Program-made: the position numbers and the translations under genes
Part shown: positions 1,730 to 24,227 of the stretch, in pieces
Position numbering within the stretch: the first letter of the stretch is position 1
Layout of the letters: each line of letters starts with the position of its first letter
The notes under the pieces: generated by a model
What the model was told of the DNA's origin: nothing
The model's database searches: none
The model's input: the letters and a program-made list of their open reading frames with translations, nothing else
Source: Gluconobacter thailandicus F149-1 = NBRC 100600
Lineage (GTDB): Bacteria; Pseudomonadota; Alphaproteobacteria; Acetobacterales; Acetobacteraceae
Direction of reading: 5' to 3'
NCBI RefSeq assembly: GCF_000964465.1
Contig: NZ_BANH01000028.1
Coordinates: 62,001-126,000 of the forward strand
DNA length: 64,000 bases

Positions 1730-2785
1730 CGCAGGATGGCTTCCGTATACTGAATCCAGGAAGCAGGCGACGCTACATGCGCAGCAGTAGTTCATGGATC
1801 CTGCGAGACTCAAGCGCCTGTCTGGCATTGGATACCACTGAGCCTGCAATATGTTCCGCGTACTGGAAGATATTCTCCATATCAATTCAGACGGTATATC
1901 TCGCCATGCTTTTCTCTATTTTCCGGCAACTATCCGATCGTCTGTTTTTAACAGTTTTTTAATTCTATTGGCAGATGAAACAACGTTTGGTCAGCTATTT
2001 CCAAGATATTTTGATATACTCCCTTGGGCAGGGCATTTTCACAGCGCGCAGCCCCCCATCATCTTTCGCCTCTTTCACGATTTCGAATGACACGCATTTT
2101 CGAAAGGCGACTGAAACAACAGGCCAGCACGGTCCTATTTTTCTACTTCCAAGACAATACGGGGCAGAATAAGGCGCCAGAAATTCCTGGTTTTCTGGAA
2201 ATTTTTTCCATTCTAATCAATGACCTCACGACTGACCCTATGTACCTCGCACACATGTGCAATGTTCGGTCATAAAATGTGAGTTTTGATTTTCGCTTAA
2301 AAGCCTATTTCTGAGGCCCATATATGACAACGATCTGACAGTGATGAAAGTTTCCATACCCTGATGTCGGACGCAAAACGGTCTCAACAGCCTCTGAAAG
2401 CGGTCCGCAGTCGACGTGTCATGAGAAATGTAGGCGTACTGCTGGGAGGACGCGCCATCAACGCTCCACACAGCCGCATCCATATTTGGCCGACAACTCA
2501 TCTACTCGGAAGTCACGGATGTGAGTTGATCGCCATGATGTATCCATTCGCCCGGACGATGAGTGATCTGTGGATTTTAAATTCTGGCAGACCAGTTCTG
2601 AAATATGGGTTGCACCTCCTGACCAGCCTCAATTCCGCTCTGGCTCTGACATTCAATCATATCGGTACGCCTGGCGTTGGAACCTATGTGGGGTCAGCCA
2701 GATCGCCTCTGGCATCGCCCAGCCAACATCCATTATCCAAACAAACGTTTATCCGGAAATGGGTCACCTCTGGCGTGAGTTCGCC
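1730..2785. other. Gene-poor stretch of about 1 kb
   Basis: I see no convincing gene here. It is more AT-rich than its neighbours and holds only short overlapping open frames on both strands. A + strand frame at 2364-2789 (141 codons) and an open stretch just 5' of the next gene have no family I recognise and could be decayed coding sequence. Any promoter for the sphingolipid genes downstream would have to lie here, but I cannot place one with confidence. Confidence 0.5.
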
Positions 2786-3151
2786 ATGACACACCTGTAT
2801 CGCCTTATCCTTCTGGCGGCCTTGGCAGTGAGCAGCATTGGCGCCTGCCTGCCAATCGCAACCCTTCTCTCTGGAAAACCCCTCCTTCAGTTCTATATTG
2901 GTAAGAGCGGAGCCATGCAGACGCTTCCCGTAATCCTGTGGCTACTGGCCGCGGAGGTCGTGGTGGTCTGGAGGCTTCCGCGGGAGCCTTTGTTTTTCAG
3001 AACCAACTGCTCCAGCCCGGCAAGATCAGTCCGCCTGTTAGACTGCCTCGTTTTCTTTCCCAAACTTGCGCTGGCTGTTCGTCGCTACGGACTGATCGGT
3101 CTGGAGCTTTTACTTGTCCTTCGAACCCCTACATTGCGGACGGCAAATTGA
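2786..3151 (+). CDS. Small membrane protein of unknown function
   Basis: This 121-residue frame is not a family I recognise. It starts MTHLYRLILL and has two clearly hydrophobic stretches, at about residues 3-28 and 45-62, so it is probably an inner-membrane protein. A third weaker hydrophobic patch sits near the C-terminus. The frame is open upstream to 2570, but the ATG at 2786 starts directly at the first hydrophobic helix. Its stop lies two bases before the ATG of the next gene, which suggests translational coupling and is the main reason to think it is real. It could also be the 3' remnant of a longer decayed gene. Confidence 0.45.
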   Translation: MTHLYRLILLAALAVSSIGACLPIATLLSGKPLLQFYIGKSGAMQTLPVILWLLAAEVVVVWRLPREPLFFRTNCSSPARSVRLLDCLVFFPKLALAVRRYGLIGLELLLVLRTPTLRTAN

Positions 3152-3153
3152 CT

Positions 3154-4284
3154 ATGAAAGTCGTCTTTCCTCTGATTGCACAGCGTCATCAGACGCTGCA
3201 TGCCCTGCCGATTGCGCTCGAAATGTCGGCCCGGTATCCCGAAATTTCCGTACATGTCGCCTGCCTGACCAGCAGCCATCTTGAACTGGCGCGCTCCCTG
3301 GCAACGCTCTATCCGGAGTCACGCGTTCAGTTCGATCTTCTTCCTATCTCGGAAAACCTGCGTCATCGCATTGAGGCTCAGGGCCTGCGTGTGCTTGACA
3401 GACTTCTGGGGCTTTTCTTTTCCCGCCGGTATTTTCGCGGCTTTGAAGCAATTATCGTTCCGGAAGCGACGTCCCTGCAACTTCGCAATATGGGCGTCCG
3501 CACGCCCCGCATGATCTGGACTGGTCATGGAGCCGGGGATCGTGCCATCGGCTTCGCAAAGCATCTGCGAAAGTTTGATTACCTGCTCGTACCCGGCCGG
3601 AAGGTCGAAGATCGCATGTTGAAGAAAGGCATTATTCGCCCAGGTTTCTATCATCGTGGAACATACGCGAAATTTGACCTGGTTCGGCGAATGCATGCCC
3701 GCAGACAGCCACTCTTCAGCAACAATCGTCCGACCGTTCTGTACAATCCACACTTTGTGCAGAAATTTTCTTCTTGGAAGGCTATGGGGCGCGACCTGCT
3801 GGACTTCTTTGCCCGACAGGACCAGTACAATGTGATCTTTGCACCCCACTTCCGCCTCTTTGACAATAATCGTGATGAGGGAGAAGCTCTCAAACGTGAT
3901 TATGAGAGTGTTCCGCACCTTATCGTGGATCCAGGAAGTCAACGCAGTATCGACATGACCTACACCATGGGTGCAGATCTCTATCTCGGGGATGTCAGCA
4001 GTCAAGTGGCAGAATTCATGATAAAACCCCGGCCTTGTCTGTTTCTGAATGCTCATGAAGCAGACTGGCAGAACAACCCGAATTATCAGTCATGGACGCT
4101 TGGGCCTGTTACGGATAATATCGCCCATCCGGCTGAGGAAATTGTTAAGGCGTTTGAGACACACTCACGTTTTCTTGAGATTCAGCGCCAATATGTACTA
4201 GAGACATTCGAAACTCTAGGCGAACAGCCTACGGCCCCCGCTGCTGCGGATGCCATTGTCGATTTTTTACAGAAAGCCGCCTGA
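3154..4284 (+). CDS. CDP-glycerol glycerophosphotransferase-like transferase
   Basis: A 376-residue protein resembling the C-terminal catalytic part of the TagB/TagF glycerophosphotransferase family. The family hallmark near the C-terminus is present: GADLYLGDVSSQVAEF followed by PRPCLFLN, the usual nucleotide-diphosphate-alditol binding region. It also has NPHF and FAPHFR segments resembling the family's TxR/HP motifs. I chose the ATG at 3154 because the first strand of the fold (MKVVFPLI) begins there; the longer frame from 2938 adds an unrelated leader that overlaps the upstream gene. Its stop overlaps the start of the acyl-AMP ligase gene by one base. In this context it may transfer a phospho-alditol or phosphosugar headgroup to a ceramide. 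That role is inference; no ortholog can be tested here. Confidence 0.7.
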   Translation: MKVVFPLIAQRHQTLHALPIALEMSARYPEISVHVACLTSSHLELARSLATLYPESRVQFDLLPISENLRHRIEAQGLRVLDRLLGLFFSRRYFRGFEAIIVPEATSLQLRNMGVRTPRMIWTGHGAGDRAIGFAKHLRKFDYLLVPGRKVEDRMLKKGIIRPGFYHRGTYAKFDLVRRMHARRQPLFSNNRPTVLYNPHFVQKFSSWKAMGRDLLDFFARQDQYNVIFAPHFRLFDNNRDEGEALKRDYESVPHLIVDPGSQRSIDMTYTMGADLYLGDVSSQVAEFMIKPRPCLFLNAHEADWQNNPNYQSWTLGPVTDNIAHPAEEIVKAFETHSRFLEIQRQYVLETFETLGEQPTAPAAADAIVDFLQKAA

Positions 4285-6092
4285 TGTCCGGCGACCCTAA
4301 TGGAGCTAGTCTAGGTTTGACCGAGGACAACCAGAACCCCATCACCCATCCCGCTCCAACGCCCAGCCGCTCTGGTCTGGTCAGACGGTACGGAAACTTC
4401 CCAAGCTTCGCTGCAGCACTTGATTATGCAGCCCAGGGCGAGAGTGGATTCAACATCTACTCCGGACGTGGCCAGCTTCTGGAAGCTCTGCCCTACCGCG
4501 TTCTGCGGGAACAGGCGGTCTCGATGGCCCGACGTCTTCTGGGTCTTGGACTGGCTCCCGGAGACCGGGTCGCGATTGTTGCGGAAAGCGATGGCGATTT
4601 CGCCCGCATTTTCTTCGGTTGTCAGTATGCCGGTCTGGTTCCTGCTCCCCTTCCGCTTCCTGTCGCCTTTGGTGGCAAGGAAGGATATGTGTCCACGCTT
4701 CGTGGCATGATCCAGGTTGCGGCTGCTCGTGCCGTTGTTGTGCCGGATGTGATTGGAAGCTGGACGTCTGATATCGTTGACGGCCTGGACCTGATCTTTG
4801 GCGGTTCGCCTGCCGACCTTCATCGCCATGCCGAAGCCAGCGTCGAACTGCCGGAAATCCGGTCTGAAGACCTGTCCTATCTACAGTTTTCATCAGGCAG
4901 CACCCGCTTCCCGATGGGCGTCTCCGTGACGCAGGCTGCCGGCATGGCCAATGCCCGTGCCATTGCCCGGGACGGCCTGAAGGTTCATCCGGCAGAAGAC
5001 CCGCGTGATGATCGCTGTGTGTCCTGGCTCCCGCTTTATCATGACATGGGACTGGTCGGGTTTTTCCTGACGCCACTCACATGCCAGTTGACGGTCGATC
5101 TGCTGCCGACGCGTGAATTTGCCCGTCGCCCCCATGTCTGGCTGGACCTGATCTCGCGGAACCGTGGTACGATCGCCTACAGCCCGTCGTTCGGATACGA
5201 GCTCTGCTCACGTCGTAGCGGTCAGGCCGAACTGGATCTCTCATGCTGGCGCATCGCTGGCATCGGCGGTGACATGATCCGCCACCATATCCTTGAAGGT
5301 TTCGCTGAGCGTTTTGCTTCTAATGGTTTTGATGCACGCGCTTTCGTCGCCAGTTATGGCATGGCAGAAGCCACGCTCGCCATTAGTTTTGCTCCGCTGA
5401 ACACTGGCATCCAGACAGATACGATCGACCTGCGGACTCTGGAGAAAGATGGCCTCGCCCAGCCCTCCAACGACCCGTCTCATGCTCTTCGGACATTCGT
5501 ACTCTGCGGCGAACCGCTCCCTGAGCATGAAATTGAGGTTCGCGACCCGTCAGGTAAGGTCCAGCCTGACCGCCATGTCGGCTGCGTTTTCGTTCGTGGC
5601 CCCAGCCTGATGTGCGGCTACTTCCGTCGTCCGGAAGAGACAGAAGCTGTTCTGGACGCTGATGGCTGGCTGAATACAGGCGATCTTGGCTATCATCTGA
5701 ATGGCCAGATCGTCGTCACAGGCCGTGCCAAGGATCTGATCATCATCAATGGCCGCAATATCTGGCCTCAGGATCTTGAGTGGTCCGCTGAAAGCGAAAT
5801 CAGCACCCTGCGATCACGTGACGTCGCTGTTTTTTCGGTTGAAACAGAAACCGGCGAGAGCATTGTGGCTCTGGTGCAATGTCGCGCCACCGAAGAAGAA
5901 AACCGCAACAGCCTGCGCGACGAAGTCACCAGCCTCTTCCGTCGTCAGCATGGCGTTGATGTCCGGGTGGTTCTGGTACCACCTCGCACGCTTCCACAGA
6001 CGTCTTCCGGAAAACTGACGCGTGCTCGCGCCAAGGCAATGCTACTCTCGGGTCAGTTTGACCTGGAACAGGCTGCAAGTTCAGCGGTCTGA
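4284..6092 (+). CDS. Fatty acyl-AMP ligase / acyl-ACP synthetase of sphingolipid synthesis
   Basis: A 602-residue member of the ANL adenylating superfamily, of the fatty acyl-AMP ligase type. Visible motifs are the phosphate-binding loop at about 197-212 (SSGSTRFPMG, with RF replacing the usual G-x), GWLNTGDLGY near 460, the hinge GRAKDLIIINGRNIWPQDLE near 480, and SSGKL near 573, whose lysine is the usual catalytic one. The ATG overlaps the preceding stop by one base. With the dedicated ACP and serine palmitoyltransferase genes just downstream, it most likely activates a fatty acid as acyl-AMP and loads it on that ACP, as the acyl-ACP synthetase of the Caulobacter sphingolipid cluster does. 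Chain-length preference cannot be read from sequence. Confidence 0.88.
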   Translation: MSGDPNGASLGLTEDNQNPITHPAPTPSRSGLVRRYGNFPSFAAALDYAAQGESGFNIYSGRGQLLEALPYRVLREQAVSMARRLLGLGLAPGDRVAIVAESDGDFARIFFGCQYAGLVPAPLPLPVAFGGKEGYVSTLRGMIQVAAARAVVVPDVIGSWTSDIVDGLDLIFGGSPADLHRHAEASVELPEIRSEDLSYLQFSSGSTRFPMGVSVTQAAGMANARAIARDGLKVHPAEDPRDDRCVSWLPLYHDMGLVGFFLTPLTCQLTVDLLPTREFARRPHVWLDLISRNRGTIAYSPSFGYELCSRRSGQAELDLSCWRIAGIGGDMIRHHILEGFAERFASNGFDARAFVASYGMAEATLAISFAPLNTGIQTDTIDLRTLEKDGLAQPSNDPSHALRTFVLCGEPLPEHEIEVRDPSGKVQPDRHVGCVFVRGPSLMCGYFRRPEETEAVLDADGWLNTGDLGYHLNGQIVVTGRAKDLIIINGRNIWPQDLEWSAESEISTLRSRDVAVFSVETETGESIVALVQCRATEEENRNSLRDEVTSLFRRQHGVDVRVVLVPPRTLPQTSSGKLTRARAKAMLLSGQFDLEQAASSAV

Positions 6093-6099
6093 AAAACAT

Positions 6100-6135
6100 C
6101 AGTCCGCCCCCTTGCACAGAAGGGGTAGCGGACTG
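6100..6135 (+). promoter_or_regulatory. Strong RNA hairpin between the acyl-AMP ligase and ACP genes
   Basis: Left arm CAGTCCGCCCCTT (6100-6113, read with its run of C) pairs with AAGGGG (6120-6125) and GCGGACTG (6128-6135), with a two-base TA bulge. That is 14 pairs around a six-base loop. No U-tract follows, so it is not a normal intrinsic terminator. It could be an mRNA processing or stability element that adjusts the ratio of ligase to carrier protein. Confidence 0.6.
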
Positions 6136-6194
6136 ACGTGCTTTGACGCATAAAGCGTCCCCAAAACTGCATAGAAGACCGAGAGTTCAATTTC

Positions 6195-6449
6195 ATGACT
6201 GACAGCGTCGCCGGCATCTCCGGCATGATCATCGAAAAACTGCTCGCCAACCCGAAAGTTCCTCGGGACATCAATGGCAACAGCAAGATCGTCGAAGATC
6301 TGGCTTTCGATAGCCTGGCTGTCATGAACTTCGTCATGGAAATTGAAGACGAACTGGATGTTTCGGTCCCGCTGGACAAGCTGGCCGACATCCGGACCAT
6401 CAACGATCTGGCTGCATGCCTGCATACCCTCAAGGCCAGCCAAGCGTGA
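6195..6449 (+). CDS. Dedicated acyl carrier protein of sphingolipid synthesis
   Basis: An 84-residue acyl carrier protein. The phosphopantetheine attachment motif is LAFDSLAVMNF, with Ser40 in DSL. The acidic helix II and overall length are typical. It is distinct from the housekeeping AcpP gene at 21.2 kb, whose site is GADSLDTVE. It sits between the acyl-AMP ligase and serine palmitoyltransferase genes, and its stop overlaps the next start in GTGA. The likely role is to carry the acyl chain that serine palmitoyltransferase condenses with serine, as in the Caulobacter and Sphingomonas sphingolipid loci. A hairpin lies 60 bases upstream of the start. Confidence 0.9.
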   Translation: MTDSVAGISGMIIEKLLANPKVPRDINGNSKIVEDLAFDSLAVMNFVMEIEDELDVSVPLDKLADIRTINDLAACLHTLKASQA

Positions 6450-7639
6450 TCGATATCTTCGCCAAGCACGCGGCGCTTCGTACGGCCTACGAGGGGCTTA
6501 CCGCAGTCTCACCGCGCAATCCCTTTGAAGTTGTGATCGAACGACCGCTGTCGGCCACGGTCGGACTTATTGAAGGCCGTGAGACGCTACTGTTCGGCAC
6601 CAACAACTATCTTGGTCTGAGTCAGTCTACACGTGCGGTCGAAGCGGCCGTTGAAACTGCCCGCACCATGGGCGTTGGCACAACGGGTTCCCGAATTGCC
6701 AATGGTACGTTCGGTCTGCACCAGCGCCTTGAAAAGCGTCTTGCGTCATTCTTTGGTCGCAAGCACTGCATGGTGTTCTCCACCGGATATCAGGCTAATC
6801 TGGGCACAATTTCCGCGCTCGTGAACAAGGACGATGTCCTGCTTCTCGATGCTGACAGCCATGCCAGCATTTATGATGGTGCAAAGCTTTCCGGCGCGCA
6901 GGTCATCCGGTTCCGCCACAATGATCCGGTTGATCTGGAAAAGCGTCTTGCACGCCTGAAAGATCATCCCGGCGCGAAGCTGATTATTGCTGAGGGCATC
7001 TATTCCATGACGGGGAATGTTGCCCCGCTGGACAAGTTTGTGGACATCAAGACGCGTCACGGCGCTTACCTGATGGCAGACGAAGCGCATTCCTTCGGCG
7101 TTCTGGGTGAAAATGGCCGCGGTGTGGCAGAAATGCAGGGCTGTGAAGATGGCATCGACTTTATTGTCGGCACCTTCTCCAAGTCTCTTGGTACGGTCGG
7201 TGGGTACTGCATTACGGACCACGATGGCGTGGACCTGATGCGCCTGTGCTCTCGTCCCTACATGTTCACGGCTTCCCTGCCTCCGGAAATCATCGCAGCG
7301 ACCCTTGCCGCTCTGGATGACATGGAAGCGCGCCCGGAACTGCGCGTAAAACTCCAGGAAAACGCCGCTCGTCTGCACGCAGGCCTCAAGGCAGCGGGTC
7401 TCCAGACAGGGGAGCATGTTTCTCCAGTTGTGGCAGTTACGCTTGAGAACATTCCGCAGGCTGTGGGCTTCTGGAATGCCCTGCTGGAAAACGGCGTGTA
7501 TGTGAACCTGTCTCTTCCACCAGCAACGCCTGACAACCGCCCTCTCCTGCGGTGCTCCGTCATGGCAGCGCACAGCGCGGAAGAAATCGACAAAGCAACT
7601 GCCGTCTTCAAAGCTGTCGCAGAACACTTCCATGCCTGA
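6446..7639 (+). CDS. spt: Serine palmitoyltransferase
   Basis: A 397-residue PLP enzyme of the alpha-oxoamine synthase family. It condenses L-serine with an acyl thioester to give 3-ketosphinganine, the committed step of sphingolipid synthesis. The PLP lysine is Lys246 in GTFSKSLG; Asp212 and His215 (DEAHSFGVLG) and His139 (DADSHAS) match the cofactor-binding residues. The GTG at 6446 is the best start because it overlaps the ACP stop in GTGA and gives the N-terminus expected of soluble bacterial enzymes. The preceding ACP and acyl-AMP ligase genes favour this call over 8-amino-7-oxononanoate synthase or 2-amino-3-ketobutyrate ligase. Ceramide synthase and 3-ketosphinganine reductase genes are not in the window. 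Confidence 0.9.
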   Translation: MIDIFAKHAALRTAYEGLTAVSPRNPFEVVIERPLSATVGLIEGRETLLFGTNNYLGLSQSTRAVEAAVETARTMGVGTTGSRIANGTFGLHQRLEKRLASFFGRKHCMVFSTGYQANLGTISALVNKDDVLLLDADSHASIYDGAKLSGAQVIRFRHNDPVDLEKRLARLKDHPGAKLIIAEGIYSMTGNVAPLDKFVDIKTRHGAYLMADEAHSFGVLGENGRGVAEMQGCEDGIDFIVGTFSKSLGTVGGYCITDHDGVDLMRLCSRPYMFTASLPPEIIAATLAALDDMEARPELRVKLQENAARLHAGLKAAGLQTGEHVSPVVAVTLENIPQAVGFWNALLENGVYVNLSLPPATPDNRPLLRCSVMAAHSAEEIDKATAVFKAVAEHFHA

Positions 7640-7662
7640 AGACCTGCATCTTCAAGCATGAG

Positions 7663-7693
7663 AAAGGGGACCTTTTCTAAGGTCCCCTTTTTT
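7663..7693. terminator. Bidirectional intrinsic terminator
   Basis: An 11-pair stem (AAGGGGACCTT / AAGGTCCCCTT) with a short loop is followed by T residues on the + strand and preceded by A residues, so it can act on both strands. It separates the spt gene from the convergent nucleotidyltransferase-like gene. Confidence 0.9.
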
Positions 7694-7698
7694 GTATC

Positions 7699-8643
7699 TT
7701 AACCTGGCGACTGAGCCTGTTTCTTCAAACGCTGCATGCGCCGTAGGAGAACTGGAAGGAAGACAAGCGGGTGTTTCCGCTCTCTTTCAGAAAGGCTCAG
7801 ATCCACTCCCGTGTGCCGCTGGATCTTCCAAGCGAGATAGGACGCTCCGTTCTCAAATGTGAAGGCAGCTTTTATCAGGCGGACAACATTCCGGGGCTTG
7901 CCGGTCTGGCCTACCAAAGCCCACCGTCGGGCGGCTCGCTTTCGAGCTACAGAAGAGAGAACAGGCTCCAGCATATTGCCGATTGCCGAATAACGCAGAT
8001 GAGCGCGCGCCCACCCTAACGGTAACATCGCTGCAAACCGGTCTTCCTGACCGGCGATCAGACTGTGCCCCCGCCCCTTCTTCTCAACCCGCAGTTCAGA
8101 ATCATATGTTCGCGCGAAAAGGGACTGCCAGTATTCAACGGCCGTCATGCGTGACTGCCCAAGAAGAGCAGCCCAGCAGGACGCTGTCGTAACGCATCGC
8201 GCAATCAGATCGAGAAGCGTATCTGCTGCTTTTTCATCCCGCACCCAAATGAGCCTGACAGGCTGACAGAACCTGGCCCACAGGGTTGTGTCCAGCGTGC
8301 CGAGGGTTGTGCGCTCTTCAAACTGCTGCCGTGAAAGGACGGCGATCTTGGCACGAAGGATACGCTCTCCGGCCTTGAACTCCGCATAGCGGACATTGGG
8401 CGGCAACAGGAGGTTGCCAGTGCGGGAGATCAGGCCGCCTGTAAAGCCGGAGGCATTTTCCGTCACAATATAGAAATCGAGAATACCCTCGAAATCTTCC
8501 GTCCTCAGGACAGAACCGTAAAACAGAATTCCAAGAGGCATCTGTGGGCAGGCAGACGCCACAGCGTCCGCGAAAGCCACGACATCTGGGTGAACCGGGG
8601 TCGTCAGTTCCCCGATCAGAAATTTTTCAAGCGCATCAGGCAT
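7699..8643 (-). CDS. Nucleotidyltransferase-like protein next to lipid kinase
   Basis: A 314-residue protein I cannot place firmly. Near the N-terminus it has ILFYGSVLRTEDFEGILDFYIV (Gly43-Ser44, then Asp56), which resembles the GS...DxD signature of the nucleotidyltransferase fold, though the second Asp is replaced by Tyr58. The rest is helical and basic, with no signal peptide. The ATG at 8643 is preferred to the upstream ATG at 8715 because it overlaps the kinase stop by only eight bases. The tight pairing with the lipid kinase gene and the position opposite spt suggest a role in modifying a ceramide phosphate. That role is inference from context; the fold assignment is tentative. Confidence 0.6.
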   Translation of the reverse strand: MPDALEKFLIGELTTPVHPDVVAFADAVASACPQMPLGILFYGSVLRTEDFEGILDFYIVTENASGFTGGLISRTGNLLLPPNVRYAEFKAGERILRAKIAVLSRQQFEERTTLGTLDTTLWARFCQPVRLIWVRDEKAADTLLDLIARCVTTASCWAALLGQSRMTAVEYWQSLFARTYDSELRVEKKGRGHSLIAGQEDRFAAMLPLGWARAHLRYSAIGNMLEPVLSSVARKRAARRWALVGQTGKPRNVVRLIKAAFTFENGASYLAWKIQRHTGVDLSLSERERKHPLVFLPVLLRRMQRLKKQAQSPG

Positions 8644-9586
8644 GGAGAAAACGGAACGCCGGCCCACGTTCAAGACGGATCTTCTCATGTTCGGACGGGG
8701 CAAAGACCTCTCCATCCAGAACGAAATCGCTCTTTGTCGTGAGCATCATGTCATCTGTGCGACCACTGACATAATCCGGATGCCGGCGCAGCCAGCGTGG
8801 TGCCCGACCGCACAGAAGTGCAGCCGTCGCGCGTGAGAGATTTTCAGGATGCGCGCCTACATCCAGATATCGCAATCCCTCAACATTCGGCTCAGCATCC
8901 CAGAAGGGCCAGATCCCGCGTGACAGCCGGGACAGACCCGTTACCAGAAACATGAAGCTGTCCCCATCATATGCATGACCGGAGGTTTCAACACGTAGTG
9001 GCTCGCCCGAGAGCCAGCTTTCCCGGCTTTTACGAAACATGAGGCTGACAACAGTGCTGAGCAGCGTAAAACCGACAGCCAGATCATGCGGCGCAAAGCG
9101 CACAACGGTCGGGGAATGTGCAATCCGAACCGCCCGTGCATATCCGGTACACCCTCCAAAAAGCCCGAGAACCGGTATGCGATCCGTTTCTGGCCATGAT
9201 AGCCGAACCGGCGTCCGAATACTGGACCGCATGGCCGCCCCCTGCTGCAGGCGACGGATCGCTTCCATCCCGCGCAGCCCGAACCCGACATCATTGGCAA
9301 TCAGATTGGTATTTCCAGACGCCAGAACTGCAATATCGGGCAACCGGTCAGCAGGATACACACGGGCAATAGCGGTCAGAGCAGTGCTGACCGTGCCGTC
9401 TCCGCCATCAATCACAATCGTCCGCACATCTCTTGCGCAAAGATGGCGCACATGCTCCGTCATGCCCTCCCGACTATCTGATGGAACGAAATTTTCTCCC
9501 AGAATCGCCTTGGCCTCCGCAGCAAAAACGGAACCACTGCGCCGGTTCTTGCGACTACGGGCATTATGAATAAGAGCAAATCGCAC
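8636..9586 (-). CDS. Diacylglycerol-kinase-family lipid kinase, candidate ceramide kinase
   Basis: A 316-residue protein with the DAGK catalytic signature: GGDGT at residues 61-65 and, further on, ASGNTNLIANDVG, the position of the family's GTGND-type motif. These proteins phosphorylate a lipid hydroxyl with ATP on the inner face of the membrane. The start is the GTG at 9586; the open frame runs on to 9757, but that leader would overlap the divergent phosphoesterase gene and does not look like protein. Being clustered with spt, it is a candidate ceramide kinase, the role shown for CpgB in the Caulobacter sphingolipid cluster. A YegS- or diacylglycerol-type kinase is the alternative. The stop overlaps the start of the next - strand gene by eight bases. 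Confidence 0.75.
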   Translation of the reverse strand: MRFALIHNARSRKNRRSGSVFAAEAKAILGENFVPSDSREGMTEHVRHLCARDVRTIVIDGGDGTVSTALTAIARVYPADRLPDIAVLASGNTNLIANDVGFGLRGMEAIRRLQQGAAMRSSIRTPVRLSWPETDRIPVLGLFGGCTGYARAVRIAHSPTVVRFAPHDLAVGFTLLSTVVSLMFRKSRESWLSGEPLRVETSGHAYDGDSFMFLVTGLSRLSRGIWPFWDAEPNVEGLRYLDVGAHPENLSRATAALLCGRAPRWLRRHPDYVSGRTDDMMLTTKSDFVLDGEVFAPSEHEKIRLERGPAFRFLHA

Positions 9587-9711
9587 TATGGGGGGAATTC
9601 TTCGTGTTATGTTCGGAGCTATGCGGGCGGGTCTAGCACGGCTATGATGGTTCCACCAGAATATGGGTGTCTCCTTCTGGTAGAAAGACAGACTAAGGCC
9701 ACGTTTCTCAA

Positions 9712-10620
9712 ATGCCCCACACACGTCCCGCAGAAACACGCACTCCGCGGACAGCACGTGCCGTCACGTTGGCCCATCTGTCGGACCCTCATCTTCCACC
9801 CCCGCCGGTGCACTGGCGTGACGCCCTCAACAAGCGCGCCCTGAGCCTCCTCTCCTGGAAAAAGCATCGGCGTCACGTACATCTGGCGACAACATGCGCC
9901 GCGATCGTGCAGGACATTACCAGAAGTGATGTGGATGCCATTCTGGTCAGTGGTGACCTGACAAATTTCGGCACACCGGACGAATTTGCCCTGGCTGCCG
10001 ACTGGCTGAAACAGCTTCCGGTTACCGCCATGGTCATTCCGGGCAACCATGACTGCATGATTCGCCAGCCAGCCGAAAAAGGCCTGCTCCAGTGGAAGAC
10101 ATGGTCTGCTACATCCTATCCGTATGCGCGCATTCATGATGGTGTGGCTGTTGTAGGTGTGAATTCGGGCGTGCCGACGCCGCCTTTCATGGCCTATGGG
10201 CGCGTTGGACGTAGGCAGTTAGCGCGGCTTGAAGCCCTTCTGAAACAGCTTGGAGACGCCGGGCTGTGCCGTGTTGTCATGATCCATCACCCACCCAGAC
10301 GCGGTCTGGTGACATGGCGCAAGGCCCTGCACGACTACCGGGCCTTTGCCCGCGTCCTTAAGCGGACGGGCGCCGAAATCGTCCTGCATGGTCATTCCCA
10401 TGACGCGACCCTGACCCACATTCCCGGCACGGACATTCCCCTGCTCGGCGTAGCCTCAGCGTCTCTTATGGACAAACGGGAACATCGACAGGCCTGCTGG
10501 AACCATCTTTCCATTCATGCGCAGGACGATGGCTGGGCCATTCAGATGTCTCGCCACAGACCCGATGGCCGGATTACGGAAAAAGCGTCCTGGGTACGTC
10601 CGCGGAACAGCCGCGCATGA
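9712..10620 (+). CDS. Calcineurin-like metallophosphoesterase
   Basis: A 302-residue phosphoesterase with all the metal motifs of the calcineurin-like family in order: D25-x-H27 (LSDPHL), GD at 81-82, GNHD at 111-114, then IHHPP and finally LHGHSHD. No signal peptide or membrane helix is visible, so it probably acts in the cytoplasm or on its membrane face. It opens a six-gene operon, its stop overlapping the LptF-like start in ATGA, and it is divergent from the lipid kinase gene. A lipid phosphate or a nucleotide-diphospho intermediate of headgroup synthesis would fit as substrate, by analogy with the UDP-diacylglucosamine hydrolase LpxH, which has the same fold. The substrate is not shown by the sequence. 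Confidence 0.8.
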   Translation: MPHTRPAETRTPRTARAVTLAHLSDPHLPPPPVHWRDALNKRALSLLSWKKHRRHVHLATTCAAIVQDITRSDVDAILVSGDLTNFGTPDEFALAADWLKQLPVTAMVIPGNHDCMIRQPAEKGLLQWKTWSATSYPYARIHDGVAVVGVNSGVPTPPFMAYGRVGRRQLARLEALLKQLGDAGLCRVVMIHHPPRRGLVTWRKALHDYRAFARVLKRTGAEIVLHGHSHDATLTHIPGTDIPLLGVASASLMDKREHRQACWNHLSIHAQDDGWAIQMSRHRPDGRITEKASWVRPRNSRA

Positions 10621-11768
10621 AACAGCGCGCCACCATACTGGACCGGTATCTTCTCACGCAGATGATACCGCCGTTCGTGATTGCCCTGGTAGCGATGCTG
10701 ATCGCATTGCTTCTTGAGCGGCTTCTGGCTCTGTTTGACTATCTGGCTTCGGCAGGAAGCTCCCTGGCGACCTGTATCAAGCTGCTGACAGATCTTCTTC
10801 CGCATTATTTCGGAATCGCGATCCCTGCGGCCCTCTGTATTTCCGTCTTCCTCACCATTCGCGGAATGAGCGATAATAACGAGATTGATGCGCTTGAAGC
10901 AGGTCGGGTTTCCCTTCTGCGCATCAGCCGCCCGTTCATGTTCGTCGGCCTCATGCTCGGTGCTGCGAGCGTTCTGCTTTACGGATATATTCAGCCGGTC
11001 GCCCGATATGATTACCGGGCAGGTTTCTATTTTGCCGCGCATACGGGATGGGCTCCGCATCTTCAGGCCGGCATGTTTGCATCGACATCCAGCACAGCCG
11101 TGATGACGGCAGATAATGTGAGCCACGCGGGAACACGGATGAAACGGATCTTCATTCGGGAAGTAAACAAGAATGGCATGGCCCACGTCATCACGGCTCA
11201 AACGGGACAACTCACCATTTCGAACAAGCTGCGCAGCACCCAGCTTGATTTATGGAATGGTGAAATCGTTGATGATCCCTTCCCCAATCATGCCAATTTC
11301 AAGCCGACAGTGACCCATTTTTCCCATGTGGTCCGCATTATTGATCGGCAGACCCAGGCAAATTCTTTCCGCTCCAGAGGAGCGGATGAGCGTGAGTTGA
11401 CCCTGTTTGAGCTGGCTCATGACCTGCGGTACGGCGTACCCGGGATCGAATACCGCACACTCCGTGCGGAAATGGATTTCCGTGTAGCGCACGCTTTGGC
11501 GATCCCGTTCATCCCCCCTCTGGCCGTGGCGCTGGCCATCGGTTCGAGACGACGCAGATCCGTATGGGGCCTAATCGCCGTTTCGGCCATTCTGGTGGGC
11601 TTTGATCAGACCCTTATGTTTGGTCATAGTCTGGCGGCTACAGGGCGGCTGCCGATCTGGCTGGCCATCTGGGTGCCGCTGGCTCTCTTCTGTATCGCCT
11701 GTCCCGCCACGCTTCTTCGCCGCTCCCGCGGATCCTGGAGACGTCGCAAGCTGGTTCGTCCCTCATGA
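10617..11768 (+). CDS. LptF/LptG family permease (LptF-like)
   Basis: A 383-residue inner-membrane protein of the YjgP/YjgQ family. It opens with the family's ILDRYLLTQMIPPFV, then has three N-terminal membrane helices, a periplasmic beta-jellyroll region at about residues 125-270 and three C-terminal helices. LptF and LptG together with an LptB ATPase extract lipopolysaccharide from the inner membrane. Its start overlaps the phosphoesterase stop in ATGA and its stop overlaps the LptG-like start in ATGA. Being inside a sphingolipid locus, it may either be the sole LPS exporter of the cell or a second pair devoted to a sphingolipid. No ATPase gene is nearby. Confidence 0.85.
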   Translation: MKQRATILDRYLLTQMIPPFVIALVAMLIALLLERLLALFDYLASAGSSLATCIKLLTDLLPHYFGIAIPAALCISVFLTIRGMSDNNEIDALEAGRVSLLRISRPFMFVGLMLGAASVLLYGYIQPVARYDYRAGFYFAAHTGWAPHLQAGMFASTSSTAVMTADNVSHAGTRMKRIFIREVNKNGMAHVITAQTGQLTISNKLRSTQLDLWNGEIVDDPFPNHANFKPTVTHFSHVVRIIDRQTQANSFRSRGADERELTLFELAHDLRYGVPGIEYRTLRAEMDFRVAHALAIPFIPPLAVALAIGSRRRRSVWGLIAVSAILVGFDQTLMFGHSLAATGRLPIWLAIWVPLALFCIACPATLLRRSRGSWRRRKLVRPS

Positions 11769-12865
11769 CTGCACATGCCCCACAACACGTTCTGTACCGA
11801 TACCTGAACCGCGCCCTTCTCGGGCGCTTCATGCTGTGCGGTGCGGTTCTTGTTTCCCTGCTCGAAATTCTGGCGCTTCTTGAAAAAACAACGCCCATCC
11901 TGAACCGAAATCTGGGCTTTCGTGGCATTCTGACGTTTGCATTTCTGCATCTACCAGCCCTGAGTGTAGAAATCATACCGCTGGCGTTCATGATCGGGGC
12001 GCTGTTCCTGCTCATGCAGATGACGCTTTCGTCAGAAATGGCCGCACTCCGCGCATCAGGCCTTTCGACTGTGGGGCTGTACCAGCGGTTTCTGCCTGCC
12101 GTTCTGATTGTCGGATTTACCGCGACGGCGGTGCAGTACTGGGTCATTCCCCCCTGCGAAAACGCCCTTGCAACGTGGTGGAACAAAACTGATCCGGATG
12201 CCGCAACACCGGACACACCTGCAAAACGCATTCTCTGGTTCCGTACAGGACCGACGCTTGTGCGGATCGGCCAGTATGCGAATGGTGGAGCCTTCCTGCG
12301 GGACGTGACGATTTACCACCGGGACGCCAGCGGCCTCCTGACAGGGACGGAGCACGCGGCAACACTCTCTTACGACGGGCAGATCTGGCATCCGACAGGG
12401 GCGCAGGATCTGACGCTCACGGATAACGGAGCGTTCGTAAAAATAACGGGGGGTGACAACCGCTTCGAAATTCCGGCCACCCCCAAGATGATTATGACCC
12501 TCTCTGAAGACAATGCTGCCGTTACACCAGCGCAGATCGGGGCTATTCTTCACAAGGGCGCCCCTGCCAGTCTGCCACGCGCGACATATCGCATGGCACT
12601 CTTCAGTGGCATCATTCTTCCATTTCAGATTGCAGTAATGCTTCTATTGGCGCTGCCGGTGATCTATATCCCTCCACGGGCAGGACTTCGAAATCCGCTT
12701 CCGGTCTATGTACTGGCTGCCGGCATGGGTTTCGTAATCCTGCAGGGAATGATTTCCGCACTCGGAAATGCAGGAACGCTTGGAGCACCTCTGGCTACCA
12801 GTGCGGGCCCGCTGCTAGGCGCCTTTTTGGGGATGACCTGGATCCTGCGGATGGAGGAAAAATGA
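11765..12865 (+). CDS. LptF/LptG family permease (LptG-like)
   Basis: A 366-residue partner of the preceding permease, with the same plan: three N-terminal helices, a periplasmic domain and three C-terminal helices. The segment SSEMAALRASGLSTVGL is the characteristic cytoplasmic coupling region of LptF/LptG. The N-terminus (YRYLNRALLGRFM) resembles LptG more than LptF. It overlaps the neighbours on both sides by four bases (ATGA), so the pair is co-translated, and the next gene encodes a fatty acid hydroxylase. The ordinary job is lipopolysaccharide transport. Export of a modified ceramide is the alternative raised by its surroundings. Confidence 0.85.
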   Translation: MTAHAPQHVLYRYLNRALLGRFMLCGAVLVSLLEILALLEKTTPILNRNLGFRGILTFAFLHLPALSVEIIPLAFMIGALFLLMQMTLSSEMAALRASGLSTVGLYQRFLPAVLIVGFTATAVQYWVIPPCENALATWWNKTDPDAATPDTPAKRILWFRTGPTLVRIGQYANGGAFLRDVTIYHRDASGLLTGTEHAATLSYDGQIWHPTGAQDLTLTDNGAFVKITGGDNRFEIPATPKMIMTLSEDNAAVTPAQIGAILHKGAPASLPRATYRMALFSGIILPFQIAVMLLLALPVIYIPPRAGLRNPLPVYVLAAGMGFVILQGMISALGNAGTLGAPLATSAGPLLGAFLGMTWILRMEEK

Positions 12866-13659
12866 GCAAGTCCAAACCCTGGCATAACATGTCGTCCCTG
12901 CGGACGGGCCGCAGCTTTGATCTGGGCAAGATGTCACTGCCCCAGTTGTGGATTGCCTACCTCACCTACCCGACGATCCTTCTCTATTTTGCGCTGATTG
13001 CCGCCGCAGCCTTTGGAGCCCTTCACTTCTCCCACAGCCTGTGGGACACACTGATCCCCACCCCGGTTGTAATCGCCGTTTATCCTCTGGCCTGGTACAT
13101 GATCCATCGCTTCATCCTCCACGGGCGCTGGCTGTATCGGAACCACTGGACTGCGGCCCTGTGGAAGCGCATCCATTTCGATCATCATCAGGACCCGCAT
13201 CTTCTGGATGTGCTGTTCGGATCACCCCTGAACACCATCCCCACGATGGCTCTTATCACCATGCCGATCGGGTATCTCATCAGTGGCTGGAGCGGCTCTT
13301 TCTGCGCGCTTTCCACGGCGCTGGTGATGACGTGCATCTATGAATTCTTCCACTGCATCCAGCATCTGGCTTACAAGCCGCGCTGGAAGTGGGTTGCCCA
13401 TATCAAGCAACTTCACGTTCTGCATCATTTCCACGATGAAGACGGCAATTATGGCATCACAAATTATGTGCCGGACCGCCTGTTTGGCAGCTTCTATCGG
13501 GAAGCCCGCGATCGCGCCCGTAGCCAACATGTCTTCAATCTCGGCTACGACATCGAAGAAGCCAAGCGCTACCCTTGGGTCATGGATCTGACGGGCTCTG
13601 CTCCGAAAGATCGACCAGACGGTGCCCGTCCAGCCTCAGACCGCAGCCGCACGGCGTGA
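12862..13659 (+). CDS. Fatty acid hydroxylase (sterol desaturase family), likely ceramide hydroxylase
   Basis: A 265-residue membrane di-iron enzyme. The histidine clusters are His82 and His87 (IHRFILH), His105-x2-HH109 with His113, FFHCIQH (164-168) and HVLHHFH (185-191), which is the arrangement of the fatty acid hydroxylase superfamily. Hydrophobic segments lie at about 32-55, 64-81 and 120-162. The family includes fatty acid 2-hydroxylases acting on ceramides (Scs7/FA2H) and C4 hydroxylases. Acetic acid bacteria are known to make ceramides containing 2-hydroxypalmitate, so 2-hydroxylation of the N-acyl chain is the likeliest reaction. It overlaps both neighbours by four bases. Which carbon is hydroxylated is inference. 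Confidence 0.82.
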   Translation: MSKSKPWHNMSSLRTGRSFDLGKMSLPQLWIAYLTYPTILLYFALIAAAAFGALHFSHSLWDTLIPTPVVIAVYPLAWYMIHRFILHGRWLYRNHWTAALWKRIHFDHHQDPHLLDVLFGSPLNTIPTMALITMPIGYLISGWSGSFCALSTALVMTCIYEFFHCIQHLAYKPRWKWVAHIKQLHVLHHFHDEDGNYGITNYVPDRLFGSFYREARDRARSQHVFNLGYDIEEAKRYPWVMDLTGSAPKDRPDGARPASDRSRTA

Positions 13660-14411
13660 CTCTTCCCGTTCTCGTTCTTGCCGGTTCCCGCGATGGTGAG
13701 CAGGATATCCTCGCCCAACTGGGGAAAGTGTCTCACAAGGCACTTCTCCCTGTTCGAGGGGAGCCCATGCTTGGGCGTGTTCTCAGAACACTTGACGCTA
13801 CCCCGGGCCTTGGCCCCGTTACCATCAGCATTGAAGCCCCTGCCTGCATCCGTGATATTGCTGGCACGGCTCAGGTTCTGAAAGCCGCGCCCTCCCCCAG
13901 TGAGAGCGTTGCCGAGGCGCTGGCCCATATTGGTACGCCTTGCCTCGTCACGACCGCAGACCATGCGCTGCTCCGCCCCGAGTGGATCACGGAGTTTCTC
14001 GGCAAAACTGCGAACTGCGATCTGGCTGTCGGCGTTGCACTCAAGGCGACCGTTGAGCGGGATGTTCCCAATACAAAGCGCACCTATATCCGCCTATCGG
14101 ACATGAGTTTTTCGGGGTGCAATCTTTTCTGGATGGGAACACCGCGCGCCGAGGCGGTCGTGGAGCTTTGGAAGCGCTTGCAGAAAGATCGTAAGCGCCC
14201 GCTGAAAATGGCGCGGACGCTTGGGTTCGGGACACTTCTCCGCGCTCTTCTGGGACGGCTGGATTCCAGAGCGCTCTGTCAGCGTATTGAAGCCCTGACA
14301 GGCGCACGCGTTCGTCTTGTCCCCCTGTCGGACGGTCAGGCCGCCGTAGATGTCGACAAGCCAGCCGATCTTATCCTGGCCGAAGAGCTTCTGGCACAAC
14401 GTCCCTCATGA
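13656..14411 (+). CDS. MobA-like NTP-transferase family protein
   Basis: A 251-residue nucleotidyltransferase of the GT-A-like NTP-transferase fold. It begins LPVLVLAGSRDG, the nucleotide-binding strand and loop, followed by HKALLPVRGEPML, with the lysine and proline typical of sugar-phosphate nucleotidyltransferases. DVDKPADL near the end is also characteristic. I chose the GTG at 13656 because it overlaps the preceding stop in GTGA and starts at the first strand of the fold; the ATG at 13575 would read 85 bases into the hydroxylase gene. In this operon it may make an activated headgroup donor such as a CDP- or UDP-linked sugar or polyol. The substrate cannot be told from the sequence. Confidence 0.78.
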   Translation: MTLPVLVLAGSRDGEQDILAQLGKVSHKALLPVRGEPMLGRVLRTLDATPGLGPVTISIEAPACIRDIAGTAQVLKAAPSPSESVAEALAHIGTPCLVTTADHALLRPEWITEFLGKTANCDLAVGVALKATVERDVPNTKRTYIRLSDMSFSGCNLFWMGTPRAEAVVELWKRLQKDRKRPLKMARTLGFGTLLRALLGRLDSRALCQRIEALTGARVRLVPLSDGQAAVDVDKPADLILAEELLAQRPS

Positions 14412-15508
14412 AAATTGCCTACGTTATCAATTCGCTGGAATGTGGCGGCGCGCAACTTCCCATCCCTGACATCATCTCCGTTCTCCAAAACCGGGGCGGC
14501 GAAGTGACGGTATTCAGCCTTGAGAAGCGGGACGGGCTTGCCATCCCCGTTCTGGAGAAGCAGGGGATCAAGGTTCGCGTCCGCTCCGGCAGCAATAAAG
14601 ATCATCTGGCGGCATGGCGTTGGCTCCGTGATGAAATGGATGCTTTTCAGCCAGCCCTGATCTGGACCTCTCTGACCCGCGCAACCCTGCTGGGCCAAAG
14701 AGCGGCCAACAGGTTGGGCGTTCCGGCGGTTCACTGGCAGCACTCCGCCCGTCTGAAAAAGGGGAACAATATCCTGTTGCGTCTCCTGTGTCGGAAAGCC
14801 GCCCTCTGGGTTGCGGATTCCCCTACAGTCGAAAGCTTTTCGCGCAATAGCCTAGGCCTGCGAAACAAGGTCATGACCTGGCCCATTTTCCGGGCAAATC
14901 CGGCCAGCCCGAAAGCGGCAGCGTGGAAGAAGGGCAAAGTTGTTCGGATCGGTAGCCTTGGTCGGCTCCATGCGGTTAAAGGATACGACCTGCTGTTCGA
15001 AGCACTGGATCTTCTGCGCGACCATCCAGACCTGCCCCCCTATCGGGTGGTGCTGGCGGGCGATGGCCCTGAACGAGACGCTCTTGAGAAGATCGTTCAG
15101 GACAAGAAGCTACCCGTTGACTTTCTCGGGCACTGTGAAGAGCCTCTAGGCTTTCTTTCGAGCCTTCACCTTTACGTTCAGCCTTCCCATTGGGAAGGAA
15201 TGTGTGTCGCGGCCCACGAAGCCATGGCCTGCGCATTGCCTGTGATTGCAACACCGGCTGGCGAAATCCCCCATACGATGGATGACGGGCACTCTGGCCT
15301 GGTTGTGCCATTCAACAATGCCCCCGTTCTGGCCAGCGCCATTGCAGAACTCATCATGCACCCGAAGAAGCTGCACGCCATGGGTACCCTGTCCCGCAAG
15401 CGCGTGCTGGACCGCTTTGGCCCTGACGCCTTCCTGAGACAGGGTAATACTGTCCTTGATCGACTACCCGGCTTTAGCCCAGCCCCAGACGACGCTTCAC
15501 GTTCATAA
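14408..15508 (+). CDS. GT4-type glycosyltransferase
   Basis: A 366-residue GT-B glycosyltransferase. The N-terminal half begins KIAYVINSLECGGAQ, the usual acceptor-side glycine-rich opening. The C-terminal half has IGSLGRLHAVKGYDLL, VLAGDGP and the donor-binding E-x7-E element (WEGMCVAAHEAM) followed by PVIATPAGEIPH. It is the last gene of the six-gene operon, overlapping the NTP-transferase stop in ATGA. Its 3' end overlaps that of the convergent gene by 35 bases. It probably adds a sugar to the lipid built by this locus, using a nucleotide sugar; the donor and acceptor are not evident. Confidence 0.85.
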   Translation: MKIAYVINSLECGGAQLPIPDIISVLQNRGGEVTVFSLEKRDGLAIPVLEKQGIKVRVRSGSNKDHLAAWRWLRDEMDAFQPALIWTSLTRATLLGQRAANRLGVPAVHWQHSARLKKGNNILLRLLCRKAALWVADSPTVESFSRNSLGLRNKVMTWPIFRANPASPKAAAWKKGKVVRIGSLGRLHAVKGYDLLFEALDLLRDHPDLPPYRVVLAGDGPERDALEKIVQDKKLPVDFLGHCEEPLGFLSSLHLYVQPSHWEGMCVAAHEAMACALPVIATPAGEIPHTMDDGHSGLVVPFNNAPVLASAIAELIMHPKKLHAMGTLSRKRVLDRFGPDAFLRQGNTVLDRLPGFSPAPDDASRS

Positions 15509-16364
15509 AGTCTCGCTTGGGGCCAAACCCCACACGCTTCACATCCACAAGCGTGACCTGCCCGGCTGCAGATAGCGTGTGAAAACCATCAGGAAAGCGG
15601 CGACGGAGTACAGCCGGCGCGTCCAGAACCGCGTCCGGCGTGACCTTCGGCAATCCACGCTCCAATCCTTCGATTTTCAACAGGCGAATACCCTGACCGT
15701 AGGTGCCGCGGCAGTCCTGTGTGGGAAGGAAGATTTCCCCATCGACCACGATCGGCGTTCCTCCTGGCCGTGCCCCTGCGCGATCGTTCAGGAAAAGACC
15801 CAGAGACGTCCACGGCCCCATAAGGTCATCAGCCACCGAGAGATAGAGTGTTGACTGGCGCTCTTCTCGCGTACCGGCTGGCGTCCAGAACATCCACCAC
15901 CGCCCGGCATGGTGGAAAGGCGTCGCATCAATGGCAGCTTCCGGGAAATTGAACGCCTCGACCTTTTCCCAACCCAGGGGGAACTGTGTTGCCCGGTAGA
16001 GGGTCAACCGGCCAGATGCACTGGCTTCTGGCAGAAGGTACGTCTCTTCCTCATGCTCGAACACATAGGGATAAGAAAGGTGCCAGTCTTCGCGCAGCAC
16101 TTCTTCGCGCTCGATAAGCCGCCCGGTGCGGTCATAGACCAACACCTCGATGACGCCTTTCGGGCTGCGGTAATCATAGGCTTCTGCAAAGACATGCAGT
16201 CTTCCGTTACGCCATAATCCAAAGGGATCTGCGAGAAACCGATGATCTCCAATGTCTGGCAGGGTTGTGACCGCAAATCCGTTCAGGCTTCCCGCCCGGA
16301 TCAGATCGGTCAGAGGAGCGTGGATGATGGCGCAACGCCAGTGATCCGTGCGCAGGAACGGCAT
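15474..16364 (-). CDS. Glucosamine inositolphosphorylceramide transferase-like (GINT1-like) protein
   Basis: A 296-residue protein with a five-bladed beta-propeller look, rich in short strands and Trp, Tyr and Asp. Key segments are FLADPFGLWRNGRLHVFAEAYDY, SYPYVFEHEEETYLLPEAS, IDATPFHHAGRWWMFWT and GGTPIVVDGEIFLPTQDC. I recognise this as the glycosyl-hydrolase-43-like domain found at the N-terminus of plant glucosamine inositolphosphorylceramide transferase and in bacterial homologues. The ATG at 16364 follows an AGGAG ribosome-binding site (AAGGAGAGTCGGC), so the upstream ATG at 16493 is rejected. In plants the enzyme decorates inositolphosphorylceramide, which makes its presence beside spt striking. 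A headgroup glycosylation role is inference; a glycosidase is the alternative. Confidence 0.68.
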   Translation of the reverse strand: MPFLRTDHWRCAIIHAPLTDLIRAGSLNGFAVTTLPDIGDHRFLADPFGLWRNGRLHVFAEAYDYRSPKGVIEVLVYDRTGRLIEREEVLREDWHLSYPYVFEHEEETYLLPEASASGRLTLYRATQFPLGWEKVEAFNFPEAAIDATPFHHAGRWWMFWTPAGTREERQSTLYLSVADDLMGPWTSLGLFLNDRAGARPGGTPIVVDGEIFLPTQDCRGTYGQGIRLLKIEGLERGLPKVTPDAVLDAPAVLRRRFPDGFHTLSAAGQVTLVDVKRVGFGPKRDFMNVKRRLGLG

Positions 16365-23457: not shown

Positions 23458-24210
23458 TTATCTGTCCGGCGTAAAAGTCAGATAGGCATCTCCCGGAATT
23501 TTGACGCGAACCTGCACAAAAGGCTTGGTGGAGCGGAAAATCGTTTCTTCCGAATAGTCCTGAGGACGCAGCATCACCGTTATGGGGTCTTTCCCTTCGT
23601 TCCTGGCCAGCATTGTGGCATGTCCGTCAGTCACAGCCTCAAAACGTGCTCCGGGAGCCAGATCAATCTTGAGCCGATGCGCATCTGGCATGAACCAGGA
23701 CAGAATCACTCCCGTCAGATCCCGGATACAGGCGTTGATCTGCGTCAGCCAATGACGGGCCTGAACACCCGTAAATCTGTCACCCTGAGGCACTTCCACC
23801 CGAAGAGATAACTCCGTTCGGACATTATGACCGATCGACTCTGTCTGAAGAATTGGGGGATTTTCTGCTATGAGTGGAGCAGTACGCGGAAAGTGCATGT
23901 CCCGATCTGTGCCGAAGAACAGGGGAATGTCGCCCTGCTTACTATGAATGACGAGACGCGCTTTTGACGGAAGTTCGTGGTCGGGCAGCAATTCACCTGC
24001 AAAATGGAGTGATATTCCATCACGCGCAGCAGCCGGAAATTTTTCGAAGCGTTCATAAAAATGGGCGACGTCCTTGTAGGTCGCCACGCGAACAGCAGGT
24101 TTTCCCGAGACGGTCACATGCTCATCAGCAGCGTAAGCCGTGTGAACCGAGAGACAGAAGAGAGCCGCTGTAAGCCCGCATATCCGAAGTGTGCTGATCA
24201 TCATACCCAT
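23458..24210 (-). CDS. Exported protein of unknown function
   Basis: A 250-residue protein I do not recognise. The N-terminus is a signal peptide (hydrophobic core TAALFCLSVHTAYA, cleavage likely after AYA). The mature chain is mostly predicted beta strand, with Pro and charged residues and one pair of distant cysteines unlikely to matter. There are Met codons at positions 1, 3 and 4, so the exact start is uncertain by a few residues. It lies between the methyltransferase gene (17 bases upstream) and fabD, on the same strand, and may be co-transcribed with them. Confidence 0.65.
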   Translation of the reverse strand: MGMMISTLRICGLTAALFCLSVHTAYAADEHVTVSGKPAVRVATYKDVAHFYERFEKFPAAARDGISLHFAGELLPDHELPSKARLVIHSKQGDIPLFFGTDRDMHFPRTAPLIAENPPILQTESIGHNVRTELSLRVEVPQGDRFTGVQARHWLTQINACIRDLTGVILSWFMPDAHRLKIDLAPGARFEAVTDGHATMLARNEGKDPITVMLRPQDYSEETIFRSTKPFVQVRVKIPGDAYLTFTPDR

Positions 24211-24227
24211 TCACGACAAATGATGTC

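Follow-up and report, generated by a model that had tools for sequence, protein, structure and literature searches.

The interval 2786–16364 of a 64,000-nucleotide stretch from Gluconobacter thailandicus F149-1 = NBRC 100600 (contig NZ_BANH01000028.1, positions 62,001–126,000; hereafter the window) holds what, from its gene content and order, is a conserved cluster for phosphosphingolipid synthesis and export of the Caulobacter kind. We place at roughly 0.6 the probability that this block makes a phosphate-bearing ceramide or hydroxyceramide lipid and passes it to an Lpt-type exporter. Its core consists of eight genes, encoding Spt (serine palmitoyltransferase), a nucleotidyltransferase-fold protein (NT1), a lipid kinase (LipK), a phosphoesterase, LptF, LptG, a hydroxylase and an NTP_transf_3 protein (NTP).

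To assess conservation, loci surrounding spt were searched by tblastn with the window genes, and matches of at least 50 bits, some of them partial, were counted. The 48 acetic-acid-type loci comprise two sets of 24 that overlap in organisms, and some end at contig ends. All eight genes were present in 41 of these 48, and all 41 share one order and orientation, which indicates an arrangement beyond chance. The TagF-like gene (25 loci), the GT4 gene (21, at least one of these matches being weak and on the other strand, in L179), the GINT1_N gene (21) and the flippase (13) are less frequent, and because of this difference we regard the eight-gene set as the core and the remaining genes as accessory. 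An AcpR match of at least 30 bits accompanies spt in 147/148 spt-bearing loci, and LipK shares the locus with NT1 in 96 of the 99 that bear NT1. Among named Spt proteins the closest come from Gluconobacter frateurii (98%) and G. japonicus (97%), near-identical records possibly having been omitted, and the region is 89% identical to G. frateurii DNA across 14.6 kb. The genes, with families called using Pfam and NCBIfam profiles, are as follows.

2187–3153, plus strand: decayed flippase (YghQ/CC_1166-type), with leftover open reading frames (ORFs) at 2364–2789 and 2786–3151
3154–4284, plus strand: transferase with a TagF-like fold, CC_1167-type by position
4284–6092, plus strand: AasR, fatty acyl-AMP ligase / acyl-AcpR synthetase (NF006624, 904.2 bits, cut-off 600)
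6195–6449, plus strand: AcpR, specialised acyl carrier protein (PF00550)
6416–7639, plus strand: Spt, serine palmitoyltransferase (NF047599 equivalog, 613.7 bits, cut-off 500; 2x8u Spt, 391.9 bits); a GTG at 6446 is a possible alternative start
7699–8643, minus strand: NT1, 314 residues, in the position of CpgC/CC_1161; nucleotidyltransferase of the Tam41 fold and putative CDP-ceramide synthase
8636–9586, minus strand: LipK, putative ceramide kinase, CpgB/CC_1160-type by family and position (DAGK_cat, 40.9 bits)
9712–10620, plus strand: metallophosphoesterase (PF00149, 61.3 bits)
10617–11768, plus strand: LptF2-like permease (PF03739, 172.8 bits; TIGR04407, 162.7, below the cut-off of 230)
11765–12865, plus strand: LptG2-like permease (PF03739, 215 bits; TIGR04408, 188.5, below the cut-off of 240)
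12862–13659, plus strand: fatty acid hydroxylase, His-rich (PF04116, 64.4 bits; Scs7 match weak, E 0.24)
13656–14411, plus strand: NTP_transf_3 protein (NTP), CC_1153-type by position (PF12804; PDB 2dpw, 92 bits)
14408–15508, plus strand: GT4-family glycosyltransferase, accessory (PF00534, 109.3 bits)
15474–16364, minus strand: GINT1_N-domain protein, accessory (PF24793, 118 bits)

A first-pass annotation, made from the window alone, had read this interval as a possible complete locus for a phosphorylated, glycosylated hydroxyceramide not described before. All the families matched here that it had named (Spt, acyl-AMP ligase, acyl carrier protein, DAGK_cat, Metallophos, FA_hydroxylase, NTP_transf_3, GT4 and GINT1_N) were found; its gene list omitted the LptF/LptG pair (10617–12865) and NT1 (7699–8643, minus strand). 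The tight coupling that it described is borne out by 4-nucleotide overlaps at all five junctions from the phosphoesterase through LptF, LptG, hydroxylase and NTP to GT4, together with overlaps of 1 nucleotide between the TagF-like gene and aasR and of 8 nucleotides between NT1 and LipK. The GINT1_N gene is convergent with the GT4 gene.

Co-occurrence with spt was counted in 299 genomes of the family, taken as the same draw across the Spt, NT1 and GINT1_N searches since their handles agree. Spt matched in 119 genomes at E 1e-60, and 100 were kept as spt genomes, with the cut at 1e-110 set after a gap in the E values was seen. Matches of 35–40% identity, which we take to be BioF-like, were rejected as Spt, and the 19 genomes having just these paralogues (best E 2e-70 to 9e-61) were removed before counting. 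NT1 was found in 84/100 spt genomes as against 1/199 others, and strong GINT1_N matches (E <1e-50) in 63/100 as against 1/199; weaker GINT1_N matches occur in 20 more genomes, all outside the 100. NT1 and GINT1_N are thus not found equally often without spt. As to distance, 77 of 84 genomes have NT1 no more than 5 kb from spt; for GINT1_N a spacing of 15 kb or less was seen in 32 of 63, so that this gene shows in part the separation from spt in relatives that the annotation had named as refuting. Taken with the neighbourhoods and the gene order, this co-occurrence supports well the annotation's idea of a single sphingolipid headgroup pathway. Two other arrangements were seen: in Neokomagataea-type genomes (L058, L167; G054, G131, G180) spt and NT1 are on separate contigs, and two of these three genomes have GINT1_N no more than 15 kb from NT1; in genome G056 (C41) NT1 and GINT1_N stand about 10 kb apart with no Spt match at E 1e-60.

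The known relative is the Caulobacter crescentus cluster CC_1152–CC_1168 / CCNA_01210–01226, the source of the phosphosphingolipids CPG and CPG2, with LptC2, LptF2 and LptG2 among its genes (PMC11324152, PMC12275187; these and the other papers are cited from excerpts). Most of the Gluconobacter set belongs to this published cluster, so as a kind the set is not undescribed, contrary to the first-pass annotation. In Caulobacter sp. AP07 (L187) the order is TagF-like, flippase, AasR, CerR, AcpR, Spt, NT1, LipK, CDP-alcohol transferase, phosphoesterase, HIT, LptF, LptG, CerS and NTP; in Phenylobacterium L205 the same order is extended by two genes, one of the DUF2141 type ahead of HIT and another nucleotidyltransferase following NTP. 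By analogy of position, NT1 would be CpgC, LipK CpgB, the CDP-alcohol transferase (PF01066) CpgA, NTP CC_1153, the last gene CpgD and the TagF-like gene CC_1167. In locus L198, residues R16 and K26 of the gene in the CpgD place coincide with the residue numbers published for CpgD, which strengthens that assignment; its counterpart in L162 is annotated as belonging to the phosphocholine cytidylyltransferase family.

The two clusters have in common, in the same relative order as judged from these Caulobacter and Phenylobacterium relatives, aasR, acpR, spt, cpgC, cpgB, lptF2, lptG2, the CC_1153-type NTP gene and the CC_1167-type gene. As expected of a member, the Gluconobacter block has the aasR-acpR-spt set, cpgB beside cpgC on the strand opposite to spt, and the LptF/LptG pair within the cluster. 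The Caulobacter cluster contains cpgA, cpgD, a HIT gene, cerR and cerS, none of which is in the Gluconobacter block, whereas the latter adds the hydroxylase, GT4 and GINT1_N genes and has a decayed flippase in this strain. Judged by its genes, the block is a trimmed relative of the Caulobacter cluster. The spt locus of E. coli BL21(DE3) (NC_012971, L038) shares aasR, acpR, spt and an LptF/LptG pair of its own and contains cerR, cerS and a lipopolysaccharide-biosynthesis (flippase-like) gene; no LipK, NT1 or NTP match was found in its 34.5-kb stretch.

The trimming concerns above all CpgA and CpgD, for which PMC12275187 proposes a joint role in the second phosphoglycerate step. A CpgD-type gene (COG1213 type) at 62–75% identity was found in 4 of 41 family genomes. 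These four also have a CpgA-type gene, which in one case is a fragment cut by the end of a contig. Neither was found in any of 25 acetic-acid-type genomes, that of this strain included, where the thresholds were E 1e-10 for CpgD and E 1e-5 for CpgA. Both are therefore missing from genomes that retain CpgB, CpgC and the CC_1153-type gene. One of the four CpgD genomes carries a second, weaker CpgD-like copy. The cpgD primers had no exact match in any locus, and the shorter primer matched with 3 mismatches in 11 loci.

An ordinary CPG/CPG2 cluster, in which CPG2 is made as in Caulobacter with the TagF-like protein serving as CpgA and NTP as CpgD, would account for these absences. Both genes lie inside the cluster, a TagF-like fold suits a CDP-glycerol-like donor, and NTP, itself a nucleotidyltransferase, weakly matches CofC (E 0.0099, 15.5 bits, cut-off 105). 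Phenylobacterium L205, however, has both genes in addition to the CpgA and CpgD types, so neither is a simple replacement, and 23 of the 48 acetic-acid-type loci, some ending early, have no TagF-like match of 50 bits. We therefore regard this explanation as unlikely. NTP itself was rejected as CpgD: it is 51% identical to a Roseomonas haemaphysalidis gene beside CerS, a separate gene holds the place of CpgD in relatives, and against the R. haemaphysalidis CpgD-type gene NTP gave just a 22-bit match over 30 residues. In Caulobacter, CC_1153 is required for CPG2, and its mutant still makes CPG (PMC11324152).

If the block does make a phosphate-bearing ceramide, the predicted shape of NT1 suggests how the phosphate head group is activated. 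Predicted models were compared by VIA-align re-alignment of Foldseek-ranked chains. The NT1 model matches the fold of the CDP-diacylglycerol synthase Tam41 (7ecd, 6ig4, 6ig2) over 218–230 residues at 13–14% identity, and these three matches exceed the best other nucleotidyltransferase listed by 7.6 to 11.1 Z units. The fold is shared with Tam41, but the Pfam profile is not matched and the proposed lipid substrate differs, being ceramide-1-phosphate. We tentatively propose, at somewhat below even odds, that CPG-type phosphosphingolipids are made via CDP-ceramide, formed by a new Tam41-fold CpgC family in a mirror of the CDP-diacylglycerol route, and that acetic acid bacteria retained the route but lost the CDP-glycerate arm, so that their lipid carries another head group and leaves through the dedicated LptF/LptG pair. 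No CDP-ceramide or Tam41 proposal for CpgC was found in literature searches of limited depth.

NT1 might instead be another enzyme of the nucleotidyltransferase fold, for example a protein modifier or one catalysing some other nucleotide transfer, with CPG formed directly from ceramide-1-phosphate. The excerpted Caulobacter papers leave the CpgC mechanism open (PMC12275187, PMC13228409), and those parts of PMC11324152 and PMC12275187 do not give the chemistry from ceramide-1-phosphate to CPG. At the sequence level, a Pfam Tam41 search of the strain's own genome gave no match at E 1, and among PDB sequences the NT1 profile matched just a nucleotidyltransferase domain (E 0.07) besides an entry at chance level. 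Set against this is the margin by which the Tam41 structures outrank the other nucleotidyltransferases, and we consider such a role for NT1 rather unlikely. CpgC-type genes also occur on plasmids, in 17 records (Roseomonas 13, Pseudomonas 2, Qipengyuania 1, Diaphorobacter 1), two of which are predicted to be conjugative; among three examined (L160, L161, L162) one is IncP.

The proposed route from CDP-ceramide would fit into the following pathway. AasR would load AcpR, and Spt would condense the acyl chain with serine, steps shown in Caulobacter and assigned here by family match. CerS, encoded elsewhere, would attach the amide chain, and a ketoreductase would reduce the base. The hydroxylase may oxidise a chain; 2-hydroxyacyl ceramides occur in Acetobacter, and a homologue of the hydroxylase adjoins CerS in many other bacteria, as seen in spt-locus neighbourhoods. 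LipK, by family and position, would phosphorylate the ceramide, as shown for CpgB, and NT1/CpgC with CTP would convert ceramide-1-phosphate into CDP-ceramide. A head group would then replace CMP through a transferase, for which the TagF-like protein and a housekeeping CDP-alcohol transferase are candidates, and LptF2/LptG2 would lift the product towards the outer membrane. As neither CpgA nor CpgD was found, the lipid should lack the second phosphoglycerate that marks CPG2; the product would be CPG or another lipid with a single-unit head group, perhaps modified by GT4 and GINT1_N in some species.

Ceramide synthase is encoded outside the block, as the first-pass annotation had foreseen: a CerS homologue lies on another contig of the genome (C123:10245–11366; 39%, E 1.8e-69). 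A classical short-chain dehydrogenase/reductase (SDR; PF00106) faces it across 68 bp, measured between the longest ORFs (C123:10224–12349, L258), and is a candidate 3-ketosphinganine reductase in place of CerR. The three best matches of this genome to the CerR profile, searched in fetched stretches, are weak (78–109 bits), and extended-SDR matches were rejected as clear CerR orthologues, one of them being HpnA at 492.7 bits. GOX1849 is named as the CerR-type gene of G. oxydans in the excerpted PMC9386255. In genome G070, CerS and its neighbour were not found in the 0.8 of 1.94 Mb scanned of one contig. The block is hence not complete, contrary to what had been suggested, with CerS and a ketoreductase outside it and the transferase using the activated lipid not assigned. 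The literature searched yielded no lipid data for the strain or genus; one review lists ceramide for Acetobacter malorum.

The first-pass annotation also had the lipid glycosylated. On that reading the product would be a phosphorylated and glycosylated hydroxyceramide whose sugar is supplied by the GT4 and GINT1-like proteins. The strong association of GINT1_N with spt genomes speaks for it, as does the 4-nucleotide overlap of GT4 with NTP, and in three genomes where NT1 is split from spt (G054, G180, G066) GINT1_N lies within 15 kb of NT1, not of spt. In a fourth genome of this kind, G131, some 47 kb separate GINT1_N from NT1, and in 31 of the 63 genomes GINT1_N is on a different contig from spt or at a distance above 15 kb. 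The catalytic (glycosyltransferase) domain of GINT1 is distinct from its N-terminal one. Of the 'GINT1-like' protein that had been named, the N-terminal domain stands: PF24793 is shared with plant GINT1, whereas no glycosyltransferase domain was detected in a Pfam search at E 0.05, so the reading rests mainly on GT4, which had no match in 27 of the 48 acetic-acid-type loci, some ending early. We judge glycosylation of this kind improbable.

The protein at 3154–4284, previously called 'CDP-glycerol-type', has no Pfam or NCBIfam family, and two homologues likewise lack any Pfam family, Glyphos_transf included; what remains of that label is the fold. Its AlphaFold model is closest to the wall teichoic acid polymerase TagF (3l7m), with which sequence identity is 14%, and UDP-GlcNAc 2-epimerases are nearly as close. 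Its profile gave three weak, unrelated matches among PDB sequences. The genome has two TagF-like paralogues (35%), at C148:18776–19849 and C167:41152–42264. Upstream, the ORF at 2786–3151 was rejected as a gene, since it looks like part of the decayed flippase: in G. frateurii the flippase is a 453-residue ORF (L163 5374–6735), of which the blastn remnant covers both ends with about 500 bp of the middle unmatched. The G. frateurii ORF has a 28% full-length match to the flippase-like gene of E. coli BL21, and G. japonicus and G. sphaericus also have full-length matches. Elsewhere in the window, positions 24001–26000 have a GC content of 46%, against 56–58% in the adjacent 2-kb windows.

Several observations weigh against a phosphosphingolipid pathway of the proposed form. 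All occurrence figures are raw counts in which kinship is ignored; spt occurs without NT1 in 16/100 genomes, NT1 is more than 5 kb from spt in 7/84, and NTP was not seen in 28 of the 99 NT1-bearing loci, some of which end early. The Caulobacter loci L192 and L224 have spt and no headgroup genes within the stretch examined, and the mapping to C. crescentus genes follows gene order in Caulobacter and Phenylobacterium relatives rather than its own sequence. Three genomes with no CpgA have weaker CpgD-like matches (30–37%), and one genome with no CpgD matches CpgA weakly (E 4e-7). Pfam Tam41_Mmp37 matched 0/47 NT1 family members, and a Tam41-like fold alone does not establish the substrate of NT1. 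No enzyme is assigned to the reaction that would follow CDP-ceramide, and the retention of the CC_1153-type gene without CpgA and CpgD is unexplained by the proposed pathway.

In Caulobacter, CPG2 helps cells survive without lipopolysaccharide, and CPG-pathway genes set polymyxin sensitivity (PMC11324152, PMC12275187). Given its gene content, the acetic-acid-bacterial block probably builds and exports a charged sphingolipid. That CpgA and CpgD are both absent from the acetic-acid-type genomes searched suggests a lipid different from CPG2 and provides a natural test of the gene-to-step assignment. The position of the TagF-like gene draws attention to CC_1167, judged probably unrelated in the excerpted PMC11324152 though the cofitness of its mutant with spt is 0.57. 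For the step from ceramide-1-phosphate to CPG, a Tam41-fold CpgC would be a concrete and assayable proposal.

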